From Desulfurococcales archaeon (lineage in GTDB: Archaea > Thermoproteota > Thermoprotei_A > Sulfolobales > WAQK01), in contig JALWQH010000052.1 of the NCBI GenBank assembly GCA_027083135.1, positions 43,591 through 107,590 of the forward strand: a stretch of 64,000 nucleotides of DNA, given 5' to 3'. Under the pieces are notes generated by a model. That model ran no database searches. It was not told the DNA's origin and saw nothing but the letters and a program-made list of their open reading frames with translations. Both the position numbers and the translations under genes were made by a program. Positions 17,955 to 45,205 of the stretch are shown here, piece by piece (the first letter of the stretch is position 1; the number at the start of each line of letters is the position of its first letter).

Positions 17955-19751
17955 ATGGACGCCCGTCTAGCCGCATCTGTGGCAATAATAGTGTTAATAA
18001 TAGTAGCTTCTGCTTCAGCCATATATCTCCGGTCTCGTAGAACGGCATCCACGACAACTTCAAGCAGTCCGAGTAGCCTGCCTCCTTCCACAATTACCTC
18101 AACTACAAGTACATCTATGGCTGCGCGTACAAGTACGTATAGTACGAGAACCACTACTAGCACTACTATCACGACAACCACTATATCATCATCGAGCACC
18201 ACTACAACTACTCATACTACTCCGAGTCCAACTACTACCATGACAACTAAAACACCAACATTCACCACAACCAGCACCACCACGATGACCAGTACTACAA
18301 CCACTATCTCGAAACCCAGCCTCTCCCAATACCTTGCTAGGCAGATCAACGGGCTGCTTGAACTCTACCCTGAACTCAATCTTAACGCAACAGGCATACT
18401 TATCACCACTCTGAACGGAACAGTATTGTACTCGCTTCACCCCCATGAACCTCTCATACCAGCATCAAACATGAAGCTCCTAACAGCAGCGGCGGCTTTA
18501 AAGTACCTTGGGCCAGACTATAAGTTCAAGACGGTCTTCATAGTCACAGGGAAAATCGAGAACTCCACGCTTCACGGAGACATAATAGTTAGAGGCACAG
18601 GGGATCCCACCCTTGTTAGCGGCGATTGGGCTGATGAATGGTCACATAAGGTTGCCTACCTCTACGATACTGAGCACCTCTTAGATGATGCTGTGAAGCC
18701 CTTAGAGAAGCTAGGAATAAAGCGTATCGATGGAAACATAATAATAGATGACTACTACCTTGACCACCAGTGGGTTAACCCTACCTGGGAGAAGGAGGAT
18801 CTCTCACACTGGTATGCTGCTCAGATAGGGGCCCTTGGAATAAACAGGAATATCGAGCTGCTTGAACTATACCCGCAGCCTTCAGGCAAGGTCAAAATAA
18901 AAGTCGTGCCTGACGTCGGCTACATCAACGTGACCTTCGCTGGAAGAGTAGTGAAGAGCAGCAGCGATGTAAAACAGTGGGCTGTAGAGGTCAGAGAGCC
19001 TGGGACAAATAATGTTAAAATAGTCGGAGATCTTCCCATGGATATAGATGTCTACTACCTATCTGTAACGGTTAATGATCCAGGTATGTATTTTGGAGCA
19101 GTATTCAAGAAGGTCCTAGAGGATCATGGGATAAAGGTTATGGGAGGAGTCAAGCGGGCTAATACTACTGGGTGGAAGAATCAGACGATCACTGTGATAA
19201 CTCTTCAATCAAAGCCTCTTAAAGATATTATAAGATTAATGCTTAAGAAGAGCCTTAATCTCTACGCAGACCACCTCTTCAAAGTTCTAGGAAAAGTAGT
19301 GGTAGGCGAGGGCTCCTGGAAGGGAGGCTCTAAGGCTGTGGAAAAAATGCTGAGGGATCTGAGCATAATGGAGGATGGAGTTAAAATAGTTGATGGTTCA
19401 GGGCTCTCCAGGGAGAACAGGGTTACTCCAAGCCTCCTAGTAAATTTGCTGCGCATATATGCAGGTAATAAGATCCTCTATAATTCCCTGCCCATAGCAG
19501 GCTGGGACGGCACGCTTAAGCATAGGATGCTGGACACCCCTGCTGAGGGTAACTTAAGGGCTAAGACAGGAACCCTCACAGGAGTATCAGCTCTTAGCGG
19601 CTATGTTAAAACCAGGGATAATGTAACACTAGTATTCTCAATGCTGTTCAACGGCTTCCATGCAACAGCGCACAAGGTTAAATACGAAATAGAGGACTAT
19701 ATAGGGGCTCTTCTAGCAGACATAAATACATCTAAGTACAAGGTGCCCTAA
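17955..19751 (+). CDS. S13-family D-Ala-D-Ala carboxypeptidase/PBP4-like protein with N-terminal TM and Thr/Ser-rich stalk
   Basis: Active-site motifs SNMK (SxxK), KKSLNLYADHLFK (SxN), AKTGTLTGVSALSGY (KTG). Confidence 0.9.
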   Translation: MDARLAASVAIIVLIIVASASAIYLRSRRTASTTTSSSPSSLPPSTITSTTSTSMAARTSTYSTRTTTSTTITTTTISSSSTTTTTHTTPSPTTTMTTKTPTFTTTSTTTMTSTTTTISKPSLSQYLARQINGLLELYPELNLNATGILITTLNGTVLYSLHPHEPLIPASNMKLLTAAAALKYLGPDYKFKTVFIVTGKIENSTLHGDIIVRGTGDPTLVSGDWADEWSHKVAYLYDTEHLLDDAVKPLEKLGIKRIDGNIIIDDYYLDHQWVNPTWEKEDLSHWYAAQIGALGINRNIELLELYPQPSGKVKIKVVPDVGYINVTFAGRVVKSSSDVKQWAVEVREPGTNNVKIVGDLPMDIDVYYLSVTVNDPGMYFGAVFKKVLEDHGIKVMGGVKRANTTGWKNQTITVITLQSKPLKDIIRLMLKKSLNLYADHLFKVLGKVVVGEGSWKGGSKAVEKMLRDLSIMEDGVKIVDGSGLSRENRVTPSLLVNLLRIYAGNKILYNSLPIAGWDGTLKHRMLDTPAEGNLRAKTGTLTGVSALSGYVKTRDNVTLVFSMLFNGFHATAHKVKYEIEDYIGALLADINTSKYKVP

Positions 19752-20210: not shown

Positions 20211-20810
20211 TTGCAGGAGGTTCCTAGCTTCCTTAACGTCAGCTGGGACGATATAGATGAGCTCTCCCTAAGCCTGGCTGAACGCATAATCTCATCGGGA
20301 TTCAAGCCTGACGCTATAGTAGGCATAATGCGTGGAGGCTGGATACCGGCTAGAATACTAGCCGATCTCCTTGGAGTCGATATTCTTGACGCCATAGAGA
20401 TAAAATTCTATAGAGGTATTGGTGAAACACGTGAGAAACCCGTAGTCACCAGGCCCCCCCTCTCAGATCTCAGGGATAAATCTGTCCTACTAGTAGATGA
20501 TGTGTCTGATACTGGTAAGAGCCTGTCAGTAGCCGTGTCAGCATTAGTTCTTCTAGGGCCGGCGCGTATAAGAACAGCTACACTGTACATAAAGCCATGG
20601 AGTATGAGCGTGCCAGACTACTATGCCGCTAGCACTGAGTCATGGATTATTTTCCCATGGGAGAAAGGAGAGATACTGGGAGAAATAGCCGAATATGCAT
20701 CCAAGCTAGGCGAGGATCCCCTGGACTTCGCTGTGCATAGACTAGGCTTCCAGCGGGAACATGTTAAACGTATTTCCAGGGTCAGGGGGCTCGAGATCAT
20801 TGATAATTAG
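20211..20810 (+). CDS. Phosphoribosyltransferase
   Basis: IVGIMRGGWIPARILADLL and PRPP motif VLLVDDVSDTGKSL. Confidence 0.9.
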   Translation: MQEVPSFLNVSWDDIDELSLSLAERIISSGFKPDAIVGIMRGGWIPARILADLLGVDILDAIEIKFYRGIGETREKPVVTRPPLSDLRDKSVLLVDDVSDTGKSLSVAVSALVLLGPARIRTATLYIKPWSMSVPDYYAASTESWIIFPWEKGEILGEIAEYASKLGEDPLDFAVHRLGFQREHVKRISRVRGLEIIDN

Positions 20811-21339
20811 GGCTGAGACCTCAGGCTGGAATGATCTCTGGGTTCTAGCAGTACTTATACGCCTTCCACCCAGCAGGGCTGAGGAGCATGCCCTAAGAAT
20901 AATTAAAATAGCGGATGATAGAGGACTGCCTTACACGCAGGTTGTCAGGCCTGAAGCATTAGTCGGCCCCCTTCACGTCTCCATAGCTTCTGTAACGGCT
21001 TATAGAAGACATAGCGCTGGGAAAGGCATAGCCCGATCCCCGTCAATCGAGCTTCTACTGAGACTTGCCGGAGAGAGGCAAGTATCCAGAGCTCTAGGAA
21101 AACTTGGTGTAAGGAGAGGTGCAGAGCAGGCCTGCCTCATATCGGTCTCACACTTTAGAGAAAAGATGCATAGCTTCCTAGAAGGCGAGCTAAAGAACAT
21201 GTTGCTAGGTGAGTGCAGGTGGGGTGGGATCAAAGCAGCGGCTCTTTACGGCTTTAACCCCGAATCCTGCATCAGCCCCGAGAAGAGATGCGCGGAAATA
21301 CGCGCAGCATCCATGGCGGTGAGACCCGAAGTATCATGA
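20761..21339 (+). CDS. Cgi121-like KEOPS complex subunit
   Basis: RSPSIELLLRLAGERQVSRALGKLGVRRGAEQACLISV resembles archaeal Cgi121. Confidence 0.65.
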   Translation: MLNVFPGSGGSRSLIIRAETSGWNDLWVLAVLIRLPPSRAEEHALRIIKIADDRGLPYTQVVRPEALVGPLHVSIASVTAYRRHSAGKGIARSPSIELLLRLAGERQVSRALGKLGVRRGAEQACLISVSHFREKMHSFLEGELKNMLLGECRWGGIKAAALYGFNPESCISPEKRCAEIRAASMAVRPEVS

Positions 21340-21412
21340 AGTTCTCAGCAATGCTTTAAGCCTGAGACTTTTCAGAGATATATCTGTGGATACACTGTTA
21401 GGGGGGTGCATC

Positions 21413-21505
21413 ATGTTCGAAGAGGAAGAGTGGTGGGAGGAAGAGGAAGAAGAAGAGGAATGGTGGGAAGAGGAGGAAGAGGAAGAAGAATGGGAGGAAT
21501 TCTAG
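21413..21505 (+). CDS. 30-aa Glu/Trp-only repetitive microprotein MFEEEEWWEEEEEEEEWWEEEEEEEEWEEF
   Basis: ATG ORF not in the track, GGGGGGTG purine stretch just upstream, GAA/GAG alternation across decapeptide repeats. Confidence 0.55.
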   Translation: MFEEEEWWEEEEEEEEWWEEEEEEEEWEEF

Positions 21506-21748: not shown

Positions 21749-23575
21749 ATGAGGCCTGGAGACAGCAGGGGGATAGAGATGAGGGTTGCGGCAATAGACT
21801 ATGAGCTCTGCAAGCCCAGCAAGTGTGGATTAGAGTGCATAAGGTTTTGCCCTGTTAATAGGATGGGGTCTAAGGCAATAGAGCTTAGCCCTAGTGTTGG
21901 AGGCAAACCTGTAATATATGAGGATACCTGTATAGGGTGCGGAATATGCGTTAAGAAATGCCCCTTCAAAGCCATAAGCGTTGTAAACCTGCCCGAGGAG
22001 CTGGAGGAGGAGGCTGTACATAGATATGGTGTCAACGGCTTCAAGCTTTTCAGGCTTCCCACTCCTAGGAGGGGAAAGATCCTCGGCATCATAGGTAAGA
22101 ATGGAACGGGGAAGACAACAGCTCTCCGCATACTAGCAGGAGAACTTAAGCCTAATCTTGGAAGAATAGGTGAAGAAGCATCATGGGATGATGTTCTAGA
22201 GCACTATAGGGGCACAGAGCTCTACGACTACTTCAAGCTGATAGTGAATGGGAGGATGAGGGTAGCCCACAAGATACAGCATGTGGACAGGGTGGCCAGA
22301 TACGTTAAGGGGAGTGTTAGAGAACTATTAGGGAGAGCTGATGAGAGAGGCCTGGCCTCAGAGCTGGCTGAGAAGCTTGGCTTAAAAGAGATCTGGGATA
22401 GGGATATAAGGAAGCTTAGCGGTGGTGAGCTGCAGAAGCTCCTCATAGCCGCGGTTGTGTCAAAGGATGCTGAGGCATACTTCTTCGATGAGCCTAGCAG
22501 CTACCTGGATGTTAGGGAGAGGATAAGAGTGGCCAAGATCATTTCAACAATGCTTCCCGCCAACAAATACATATTAGTTGTGGAGCATGATCTCGCAATA
22601 CTTGACTATCTCTCTGACCTGATCTCAATAATCTACGGCGAACCAGGCGTTTATGGAATAGTGTCAAGGCCGTATGGCTCAAGAGCAGGTATAAACCACT
22701 TCCTCACCGGCTACCTGCCTGCAGAGAACATGAGGATCAGGCCGACCCCCATAAGGTTCCATGTAAGAGCCTCTGCCCCTGCGAAAAGCTCTGCTCCCCA
22801 AACATACTTAGAGTGGAGCAGCATGGAGGTTAGGCTGGGCTCCTTCACCCTAAGCATCGAAGGTGGGGAGGCTCTTAGAGGAGAGGTTGTTGGAATAGTG
22901 GGTCCTAACGGCATAGGCAAGACAACATTTATCCGCGTCCTGGCAGGCGAGGTGAAGCCCATTAAAGGTAGTGTAACATGTAGTGGACTCGAGATGAGCT
23001 ATAAGCCACAATACGTTTCACCAGATATGTATGAGGGTAAAACAGTTGAGGAGGTTTTACGCGATGCTAACCCTAACTCCCTGGCAAGCGGCAGCTGGCT
23101 TTACACGGAGCTTATACGTAAGCTAGGTCTTCCAAGACTTCTAGAACGCGATGCATCAAGCCTCAGCGGCGGCGAGCTGCAGAAGCTGGCAGTGGCTGAA
23201 GCCTTAGCAAGGGAAGCCGACATATACTTGCTCGACGAACCCTCAGCCTACCTCGACGTGGAGGAGAGGCTCACAGTTGCAAGAATTATAAGAAGGCTCA
23301 CAGAGGCCCGCGGCATAACAGCCTTTGTAGTGGAACACGATGTATCTATACAGGACTTCATAGCCGACAGGCTAATGGTGTTCAGAGGGGAACCAGGAAT
23401 ACGGGGAGAGGCATCAAGACCTCTCAGCCTCAGGCAAGGCATGAACACGTTCCTCAAAGACCTAGCCGTAACCTTCAGAAGGGATCCCGAGACAGGCAGG
23501 CCCAGAATAAATAAGGAGGGAAGCCATCTCGACAGACTTCAGAAAAAGAAGGGAGAATACTACTATGCCGTCTAA
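21749..23575 (+). CDS. Ribosome recycling/biogenesis ATPase ABCE1 (Rli1)
   Basis: N-terminal Fe-S cluster CxxCxxxCIGCGICVKKCPF, twin ABC domains GKNGTGKTT and GPNGIGKTT, two LSGGELQK signatures. Confidence 0.97.
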   Translation: MRPGDSRGIEMRVAAIDYELCKPSKCGLECIRFCPVNRMGSKAIELSPSVGGKPVIYEDTCIGCGICVKKCPFKAISVVNLPEELEEEAVHRYGVNGFKLFRLPTPRRGKILGIIGKNGTGKTTALRILAGELKPNLGRIGEEASWDDVLEHYRGTELYDYFKLIVNGRMRVAHKIQHVDRVARYVKGSVRELLGRADERGLASELAEKLGLKEIWDRDIRKLSGGELQKLLIAAVVSKDAEAYFFDEPSSYLDVRERIRVAKIISTMLPANKYILVVEHDLAILDYLSDLISIIYGEPGVYGIVSRPYGSRAGINHFLTGYLPAENMRIRPTPIRFHVRASAPAKSSAPQTYLEWSSMEVRLGSFTLSIEGGEALRGEVVGIVGPNGIGKTTFIRVLAGEVKPIKGSVTCSGLEMSYKPQYVSPDMYEGKTVEEVLRDANPNSLASGSWLYTELIRKLGLPRLLERDASSLSGGELQKLAVAEALAREADIYLLDEPSAYLDVEERLTVARIIRRLTEARGITAFVVEHDVSIQDFIADRLMVFRGEPGIRGEASRPLSLRQGMNTFLKDLAVTFRRDPETGRPRINKEGSHLDRLQKKKGEYYYAV

Positions 23576-42733: not shown

Positions 42734-45205
42734 TCAGAAGGATCTTCTGAATAGGACAGGGCCTTCGAATATCCTATAAACCATTATTTTCACAGCATCA
42801 CTTATCGCGAACCATAGGAGAGCATATGCCCATATGAAGCCTGCAACCCATAGAGGTATAGGCGTAACTAGTCCTATTCCTAGAATAGCAACAGCCGTTG
42901 CCGCAATCTTAGTTATAACTGCTGCTGAGAGTAGCCATTTCCCAGGCCTTATGCTCCAGAAGGGGCCTTTCGTCCTGGTTACAAATATTGTGAGGTGCCC
43001 TGCTACTGCTAGTTTCAGAAATATGAATGTCTGCAATGCTGCTAGATGCTTGCTTGGAGAAAAGCCGAACACTGCTATGCCTATATATAATGCTAAGAAA
43101 CTACTTACCAGTCCTGTTAGACCTATTGCCGTGGAAAGGGCTAAGACATGCGGTATATTCCATTTTTCAGGCCTCTTACTTATCTTAACATTATCGTAGG
43201 CTATGGCAAGTATCGGCAGGTCGTTGAGAAGCGCAAGCAGTATTATCATTACGGGAGTTATCGGATAAAAATTGAAGGCCAGTATAGCGAATGTTATGAA
43301 GAACAGTATCCTTATCGTCTCTGTTATTCTGTAGATAACGTAGCTGTACATTCTCCTAAAAGTCTCTCTAGCAGCCACTATGGCGTCTTTGATGACTGAG
43401 ATCCCCTGTGCAAGCAGCGCTATGTCGGAGGCAGCTCTAGCTGCATCTGTTGCGCCTGCGACAGCTATGCCTACATCAGCTTTTTTCAACGCTGGGGCAT
43501 CATTGACGCCATCCCCTGTCATAGCTACAGCGTGCCCCGCTCTTTGCAGGGCATCTACGATCATGTACTTATGCTCAGGCATAACCTCGGCAAAGCCATC
43601 GGCCTCTTCGATCATTCTTGTCTGCTCGCTTATATGCGCCTTCCTAAGCTCATCAGCCGTATAGATCCTGCTGCCTATGCCTACAAGCCTCCCTATTTCT
43701 CTTGCTATAGCTACATGGTCCCCTGTTATCATTTTCACCTTAATGCCCATCTTCTTTATCTCTCTGATAGTCTTAGCAGCATCTTTCCTTGGAGGATCAT
43801 AGAGTGGCACTAAGCCAAGATATACCCACCTGTCTCCATATGTCCTGGCTACACCGATCATCCTATATCCTCTTTCAGCATACTTATCAACGATTGCAGA
43901 GACCTTTTCGGCCAGCTTCTCTGAGGCTCCTGTAAGGCTGAGTATTACTTGAGGAGCACCCTTAGCCACCCTGAACTCCTCGCCTTTAGGTGATCTGACT
44001 CGAGCCTCAGTTCTCTTGGTTTCAGGGTCAAAGGGCTTGAATTTTATTTGCTTATACTCTGCATACTTCTCTTTTAATCCATATTTACCGAGCGCCTCCA
44101 GGACGGCCAGGTCTATGGGATCCTTGTCCTCCTCTCTTGAAGCAAGCGCGGCATATAGTATCACATCCTCTATCCTAAGCCCTTCAGCCAGAGGTTCGGG
44201 ATCAATTATTGTAAGCTTATTTACAGTTATAGTTCCAGTCTTATCAGCACATAGGGTATCTACCCCAGCTAGCTCTTCAATGGCCACTAACTTAGTGACT
44301 ATTGCCTGCCGTCTAGCAAGCTCGTAAGCTCCTATAGCCATGGTTATGGAGAGTACTGCAGGCAATGCTGCAGGAATAGCTGCAACAACTAGTATTAGGG
44401 AGAACTTGGTTAACTCGATTATATTCATCCCTCTACGTATTTCTACCAGGACTACTAGGGAAACAAGGATCAATGTTAACAATATCAGGTAGTCTCCGAT
44501 CCTAAGGATCAGTTTTTGATACTTGCTAATGGTCCTAGCCTTCTCCACAAGTTCCACTGTTCTACCAAAATACGTGTTTAACCCTGTAGCCACGACAATG
44601 CCTGTCATCTCACCTCTCTTGACCAGTGTCCCAGCATAAGCGACATCGCCTACCTTCTTCTCAACGGGTATCGATTCACCTGTTACGACAGACTCATCTA
44701 TCATTGCATATTCTCCTTCAACAAGTTTAACATCCGCGGGCACTATGTCCCCAAGCCGTATCCTAACAACATCTCCTGGAACCAGTTCCTTTGCTGGAGC
44801 AGTAATCCACCTACCATCCCTCAGGATCCTTGTGGTGAGTGATAGCTTCTTCTTAAGATAGCTGATGATGTTTTCCGCCTTGTGCTCCTGCCAGAAGCCT
44901 ACAATACCATTAACCAATAGGAGGGCAAGGATCATGGAGAAATCTACCCAGTGCCTAATAGCCACTGAGAGAATTGCCGCTGCCTCAATCATCCAGGGTA
45001 TAGGCCCCCAAAAATAGCCTAGAAACCTGACTATAGGGTTAACCTTTTTCTCAGGGATCTCATTGGGCCCGATTTCTTTAAGCCTCTCAACGGCATCCTT
45101 GGAAGAAAGCCCTGATTCAAGTGATGTGCATAGCCTGCTGATAACATCGTTAATGCTCAGCTTCTCAGCTTCATCGGCCCTAATGTACCGGGCTTCACAT
45201 TCCAC
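42734..45205 (-). CDS. P-type (P3A) plasma-membrane H+-ATPase
   Basis: DESVVTGESIPVEK, DTLCADKTGTITVNKLT, KMITGDHVAIAREI, MTGDGVNDAPALKKADVGIAV. Confidence 0.95.
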   Translation of the reverse strand: MECEARYIRADEAEKLSINDVISRLCTSLESGLSSKDAVERLKEIGPNEIPEKKVNPIVRFLGYFWGPIPWMIEAAAILSVAIRHWVDFSMILALLLVNGIVGFWQEHKAENIISYLKKKLSLTTRILRDGRWITAPAKELVPGDVVRIRLGDIVPADVKLVEGEYAMIDESVVTGESIPVEKKVGDVAYAGTLVKRGEMTGIVVATGLNTYFGRTVELVEKARTISKYQKLILRIGDYLILLTLILVSLVVLVEIRRGMNIIELTKFSLILVVAAIPAALPAVLSITMAIGAYELARRQAIVTKLVAIEELAGVDTLCADKTGTITVNKLTIIDPEPLAEGLRIEDVILYAALASREEDKDPIDLAVLEALGKYGLKEKYAEYKQIKFKPFDPETKRTEARVRSPKGEEFRVAKGAPQVILSLTGASEKLAEKVSAIVDKYAERGYRMIGVARTYGDRWVYLGLVPLYDPPRKDAAKTIREIKKMGIKVKMITGDHVAIAREIGRLVGIGSRIYTADELRKAHISEQTRMIEEADGFAEVMPEHKYMIVDALQRAGHAVAMTGDGVNDAPALKKADVGIAVAGATDAARAASDIALLAQGISVIKDAIVAARETFRRMYSYVIYRITETIRILFFITFAILAFNFYPITPVMIILLALLNDLPILAIAYDNVKISKRPEKWNIPHVLALSTAIGLTGLVSSFLALYIGIAVFGFSPSKHLAALQTFIFLKLAVAGHLTIFVTRTKGPFWSIRPGKWLLSAAVITKIAATAVAILGIGLVTPIPLWVAGFIWAYALLWFAISDAVKIMVYRIFEGPVLFRRSF

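Follow-up and report, generated by a model that had tools for sequence, protein, structure and literature searches.

Gene content of the locus

The window, that is the whole stretch of 64,000 nucleotides that was analysed, corresponds to positions 43591–107590 of contig C52 in a 1.75-Mb, 99.6% complete archaeal genome assembly. The features at the locus are as follows.

20211–20810, + strand: phosphoribosyltransferase-domain protein, part of an upstream block common to relatives (domain match, gene order)
20761–21339, + strand: Cgi121-like protein (KEOPS subunit), upstream neighbour, which also adjoins the ORF in several relatives (Pfam CGI-121 at E 1.2e-4, which narrowly misses the curated cut-off)
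21375–21384, + strand: AT-rich AGATATATCT, a tentative TATA-like element ~30 nt 5' of the ATG (sequence only)
21401–21408, + strand: GGGGGGTG, likely Shine-Dalgarno element, with GGTG at 21405–21408 (GGTG is enriched there across the family)
21413–21505, + strand: W/E microprotein ORF MFEEEEWWEEEEEEEEWWEEEEEEEEWEEF, ATG to TAG (family conservation, codon bias, Shine-Dalgarno signal)
21749–23575 as listed ORF, + strand: ABCE1 ribosome-recycling ATPase, downstream neighbour (Pfam, Fer4_RLI and ABC domains)

The original prediction had described an ORF of 30 codons using Met, Phe, Glu and Trp alone, and a frame with this composition was found at exactly 21413–21505. Its product has Trp at positions 7, 8, 17, 18 and 27, and its two WW pairs stand 10 residues apart. 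The purine-rich stretch reported before the ATG is GGGGGGTG, the GGTG of which ends 4 nt 5' of the start codon. The placement of the ORF between a Cgi121-like gene and ABCE1 was confirmed by Pfam matches for both neighbours. Homology of ABCE1 to relatives begins only at about residue 9–11 of the listed ORF, and its true start is therefore probably the ATG at 21779. No C/D sRNA, which had been proposed beside the ORF, was detected there with Rfam at gathering thresholds.

A finder for acidic/aromatic short ORFs returned nothing besides the W/E ORF in the 64-kb window, and (GAR)6 occurs elsewhere in the 1.75-Mb genome at three places only, which puts the ORF far beyond chance. AlphaFold2 predicted a single helix for the peptide (pLDDT 96); this is weak evidence, as such models are common for Glu-rich chains. 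Elsewhere in the window, an archaeal protein with an N-terminal stretch rich in Thr and Ser is encoded at 17955–19751 (+); it belongs to Peptidase_S13 (E 3.6e-106), the D-Ala-D-Ala carboxypeptidase 3 family.

Distribution of the W/E family

The original prediction had suggested looking for W/E ORFs near ABCE1 in relatives, and this search proved positive across a phylum. Scanning ABCE1 and 1.5 kb on either side in relatives revealed W/E-only ORFs in 13 of 29 loci, an example being MIFEEEEWWEEEEEEEWWEEEEEEEEW from the same family as the window genome. Within the order, the strict pattern TGG(GAR)6N{0,6}TGG matched 91 of 216 genomes and the reversed pattern, used as control, matched 0 of 216. 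The relaxed pattern EEEW(x)EEE was present in every genome of families f1 (3/3), f2 (16/16), f3 (11/11), f4 (3/3), f5 (4/4), f8 (10/10) and f10 (28/28); the counts for f9, f6 and f7 were 4/5, 7/29 and 0/3.

The Sulfolobaceae-like family f11 appeared nearly empty with the relaxed pattern, but only because its members contain Asp. These include MVFEEDWEEEFEEFEEEEDWEEEEDWEEEW (TTG start) in G041 and G031, MIEEDWEDIEEEDWEDIEEEDWEEEEW (TTG start) in G022 and MEEEWEEDLEEEEWEDELDEDWEEEEW in G012 and G059, all immediately 5' of ABCE1 (at ~50 nt in G041). The Sulfolobaceae have thus retained a W/E gene just 5' of ABCE1 though its sequence has diverged.

For an unbiased check, ~1.3 kb 5' of ABCE1 was inspected in 40 genomes (39 outside the order) with their families spread, taken from a phylum-wide ABCE1 search. 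A W/E(D) ORF was clear in 16 and doubtful in one more, in all cases on the ABCE1 strand and mostly less than 600 nt away; no W/E ORF was present in these ~1.3 kb in the genomes sampled from f17, f23, f26, f32 and others. Altogether at least ~145 distinct members were recovered, extending from Desulfurococcales and Sulfolobaceae to Bathy-, Brock- and Methanomethylicota archaea. Among the matches listed, named records add Bathyarchaeota, Brockarchaeota, Methanomethylicota, Wolframiiraptor and Thermoproteaceae MAGs, and there are also a few possible Asgard members. Bacterial matches among those listed were mostly unrelated frames or the tails of larger proteins. A viral origin was considered and rejected: the pattern matched eight viral contigs, yet the ORF finder gave one acidic ORF in them, which is not of the W/E family.

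Two different W/E genes were found in G199 (L309 and L310), one 5' of ABCE1 and the other not. The Pyrodictiaceae MAG S141_metabat2_scaf2bin.116 also has two (L098 and L145), each 5' of an ABCE1 copy, which may represent two strains in one bin.

Evidence for a translated gene

Codon usage was examined in 138 distinct coding sequences, in which GAA (1678) and GAG (1600) are used to a similar extent and Asp codons are rare (81). Among equal-length pairs with at most four residue differences, which are not independent of one another, nucleotide differences at codon positions 3, 1 and 2 number 463, 85 and 71. Single pairs give the same picture, with third-position against other changes of 20 to one (L011/L012), 10 to 0 (L087/L113) and 10 to 0 (L227/L228). 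In a non-coding purine tract, A and G would replace each other at every codon position; the third-position bias speaks for coding. GGTG occurs within the last 20 nt 5' of the start in 68 of 136 members, compared with three of 136 in the preceding 20 nt, and its commonest spacer to the start is 6–7 nt. TATA-like motifs were found 5' of many other members, in a survey made without a control.

In the window ORF itself the repeat copies are 82% identical and differ in their choice of GAA or GAG, in line with the earlier argument that they are not the product of recent slippage; across the family, changes likewise sit at third codon positions. A purine-tract or slippage artefact was ruled out by this codon-position divergence. 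The broader notion, that the ORF is not a gene and that a purine-rich repeat is maintained by slippage or by a function at the DNA or RNA level, could draw on the low complexity of the sequence and the purine richness of the strand. Against it, A and G replace each other at third codon positions only, codons for Trp are retained, start, stop, Shine-Dalgarno element and C-terminal Trp are kept, and the reversed control is without a match in 216 genomes; we regard it as highly improbable. The family shows the marks of a translated conserved small protein, with start, stop and ribosome-binding signals retained, synonymous-biased divergence and conservation across genera. The ORF almost certainly encodes a real microprotein that is translated and belongs to an archaeal family spanning a phylum.

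Composition of the family members

The 145 distinct members are 18–64 aa long (median 31) and consist of 66.8% Glu, 13.9% Trp and 3.3% Asp, with no Cys, no His and a total of two Lys/Arg past residue 12; the median net charge is -22. A C-terminal Trp or Phe is found in 114 of the 145, against 26 expected from composition. Trp directly precedes the stop in 99, and 95 end in EEEW. All members contain a Trp-centred acidic motif, since the search was built to require it.

Successive hydrophobic residues are spaced by 1 or spread over 4–9 across the family. The decapeptide periodicity of the original prediction holds for the window ORF and fails as a family trait: Trp spacing is irregular among members, making the ten-residue step a peculiarity of that ORF. 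A simple decapeptide repeat, or an amphipathic helix with one Trp face, was rejected on the same irregular spacings and on a periodicity spectrum that had no clear excess over gap-shuffled controls.

It is conceivable from the poly-Glu composition that these peptides bind metals or other cations, or serve as acidic solubility or thermoprotective factors, in either case with no specific partner. Lacking Cys and His, they could bind hard cations at most, and the costly conserved Trp, the C-terminal Trp and the linkage to ABCE1 would all be left unexplained. We consider this improbable.

Genomic linkage to ABCE1

Linkage was assessed in 129 distinct coding sequences that had been found by pattern and not via ABCE1. 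ABCE1 lies less than 1 kb away in 59 of these (53 of 103 when at least 1 kb of flank is present on both sides), being downstream on the same strand in 43 and upstream and divergent in 14; we estimate from ~1,800 genes per genome that a random gene would be expected so near to ABCE1 in far fewer than 1% of genomes. The gene order S17e – phosphoribosyltransferase – Cgi121 – W/E ORF – (TFS) – ABCE1 is recurrent, parts of it being shared by lineages that range from Desulfurococcales to Methanomethylicota, and the linkage may be a legacy of ancestral gene order and not a sign of common function. No other gene is found beside the ORF as often as ABCE1, or in as many lineages. Of the roles suggested at first, namely metal binding, nucleic-acid mimicry and binding at the membrane interface, the first and the last are made less likely by this conserved linkage, which speaks for a role on the translation apparatus. 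The original view of a real microprotein in a translation context is strongly supported by phylum-wide conservation. A neighbouring PCNA was discarded as a candidate, the 240-aa proteins of the ABCE1 cluster being transporter-type ATPases.

In many lineages ABCE1 follows directly 3' at 40–520 nt, which, with Trp standing right before the stop in most members, would suit a cis-acting sensor: an acidic nascent chain ending in Trp would pause or destabilise ribosomes and so couple ABCE1 expression to recycling capacity. Acidic residues in the first 30 aa are known to pause ribosomes, which is relieved by the ABC-F protein EttA, also on the leader MgtL (PMC11282234), and ribosomes are destabilised by acidic runs (PMC9718836); these precedents, however, are bacterial or eukaryotic. 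Acidic leader peptides such as MgtL resemble the W/E ORF as short acidic ORFs 5' of a gene (PMC11282234), but the W/E ORF has no co-directional downstream gene in several lineages, the next gene being convergent in the Desulfurococcaceae-like f10, part of f6 and Wolframiiraptor, where the ORF is thus by itself. Other families carry an equally conserved gene far from ABCE1 (f4, f5, f24, f38, most of f6 and Saccharolobus-like genomes). That the gene is detached, or its downstream neighbour convergent, in several lineages argues against a purely cis-acting leader, and we judge the sensor unlikely.

TFS and S17e are the other neighbours within 1 kb (30 and 29 distinct members, respectively), and in some lineages they are linked nearly as often as ABCE1. 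A tentative alternative is a trans-acting acid-aromatic peptide whose main partner would be a basic protein other than ABCE1 or the 30S subunit, with the effect of shielding nucleic acid from that partner or displacing it; candidates for such a basic protein are a chromatin protein, RNA polymerase/TFS or free ribosomal proteins. The strong negative charge and several Trp would fit this, as would the ABCE1-detached members, which have the same composition. Histone-chaperone acidic domains with aromatic anchors offer a comparison, and a precedent is the acidic domain of APLF, in which an acidic chain bearing aromatic anchors binds to basic proteins (PMC9328677). The APLF segment is like the W/E peptides in type of composition, but it is a domain of a multidomain eukaryotic protein and no sequence relation is claimed. 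What this alternative does not account for is the position of ABCE1 as commonest neighbour, retained in more lineages than any other.

Two further observations concern ABCE1 genes. In f22 (G227, G241, G248, G255, G268 and G319) the match to ABCE1 does not begin until about query residue 58–66 and lies in an open frame of ~925 residues, as though the iron-sulphur part had been exchanged or another domain added at the N-terminal end. In genus g89 of f20 (G225, G232, G253 and G267), ABCE1 has one in-frame TAG each, which may stem from recoding of the stop, from a frame join or from an error.

Comparison with known proteins

In agreement with the first reading, which recognised no family, typical members had no match in Pfam-A (at E-value limits of 1 or 10) or NCBIfam, where HMMER low-complexity treatment limits sensitivity. 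PDB sequences gave no match with either a single member or the family profile as query, low complexity again limiting sensitivity, and the peptide strings were not found in the full text of the open-access literature. By sequence comparison, then, what is new is the microprotein family and its composition, which matches no family in the libraries searched.

The closest functional parallel is offered by the N-terminal acidic motif of eIF3j/Hcr1, which like the W/E members places Trp next to acidic residues and has a link to ABCE1, that of the W/E members being gene linkage alone. In yeast this motif comprises W37, D38 and EEEE40–43; its conserved Trp is held by a pocket in the RRM of eIF3b, and leaky scanning results when the key Trp residues are mutated (PMC2824034). 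eIF3j is functionally linked to Rli1/ABCE1 and helps recycling (PMC12794334; PMC7196836). Unlike the W/E peptides, the motif belongs to a larger protein that binds the eIF3b RRM, and with the eIF3j (Hcr1) Pfam profile no match to typical members was obtained at these E-value limits. To our knowledge, eIF3 is absent from archaea.

DSS1/SEM1 proteins are small, acidic, extended and Trp-containing, with ~70–90 aa, Asp-rich motifs and a C-terminal helix. The W/E members are also small and acidic with Trp, but they lack these Asp-rich motifs and the C-terminal helix, and neither the DSS1_SEM1 profile nor SEM1 chains in PDB gave a W/E match, with sensitivity limited by low complexity. The C-terminal tail of SSB is an acidic stretch with a terminal aromatic residue bearing a free carboxylate; it resembles the W/E peptide in its acidic character and aromatic end, but is the tail of a DNA-binding protein, while the W/E peptide is stand-alone and repeat-like.

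LysW/ArgW carriers are recognised by a Cys-pair zinc ribbon and a C-terminal EDWGE. No Cys is present in the 145 members, typical ones have no zinc ribbon, and EDWGE occurs inside some members and is not C-terminal there. Three proteins that combine a LysW-like zinc-ribbon head with a W/E-rich tail, L134 (5592 ff., +), L221 (1462–1686, -) and L154 (170 ff., +), were excluded from the set; their hosts are two Thermoproteota genomes and one Thermoflexus (bacterial) MAG. In the Chloroflexota proteins L119, L138, L143 and L177, a head with Cys (CHYxDC...) is joined to an acidic W/E/D tail, a like tail composition in unrelated hosts. The recently described proteins aS33 and aS34 of the S. solfataricus 30S subunit were rejected as candidates, aS33 having ~80 residues with zinc motifs and both being known UniProt entries (PMC11698992).

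Possible role and significance

The existence, coding nature, conservation and gene linkage of the W/E family are supported by the data. For its function, the reading we prefer, with a probability of roughly 0.38, is that of a trans-acting acidic peptide with Trp anchors which binds a basic surface, most likely of the ABCE1–30S recycling machinery. The gene arrangements suggest action in trans, which the convergent downstream gene in Desulfurococcaceae and Wolframiiraptor would fit. The peptide would form a highly acidic rod or coil with several Trp anchors, usually ending in -EEEW, and its Trp residues would dock into hydrophobic pockets of the basic surface as acid-aromatic ligands do. With ABCE1–30S in ribosome recycling and re-initiation as the most likely target, it may modulate subunit splitting or release, comparable to the acidic Trp-centred N-terminus of eIF3j/Hcr1 around Rli1/ABCE1. 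Weighing against ABCE1 as the target are the position of the gene away from it in many families, the linkage to TFS and S17e, and the many archaea that have ABCE1 without a W/E gene (the f17, f23 and f32 samples).

More speculatively, the family could represent an undescribed translation factor of Thermoproteota (perhaps also Asgard), a Glu/Trp protein of ~30 residues that would bind ABCE1 or 30S and control recycling as a free-standing counterpart of the acidic-Trp motif of eIF3j. If the eIF3j-like reading is true, the mode of action would itself be a variant of an already known kind, and the novelty would lie in the family and its composition.

That a protein of nearly two residue types is under purifying selection across a phylum is surprising in itself. 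Such genes would tend to escape tools, owing to low-complexity masking and the skipping of very short ORFs. The conserved small protein described here hints that the archaeal translation machinery has a small partner which has gone unrecognised, and its linkage to ABCE1 opens the question of archaeal ribosome-recycling partners to direct test.
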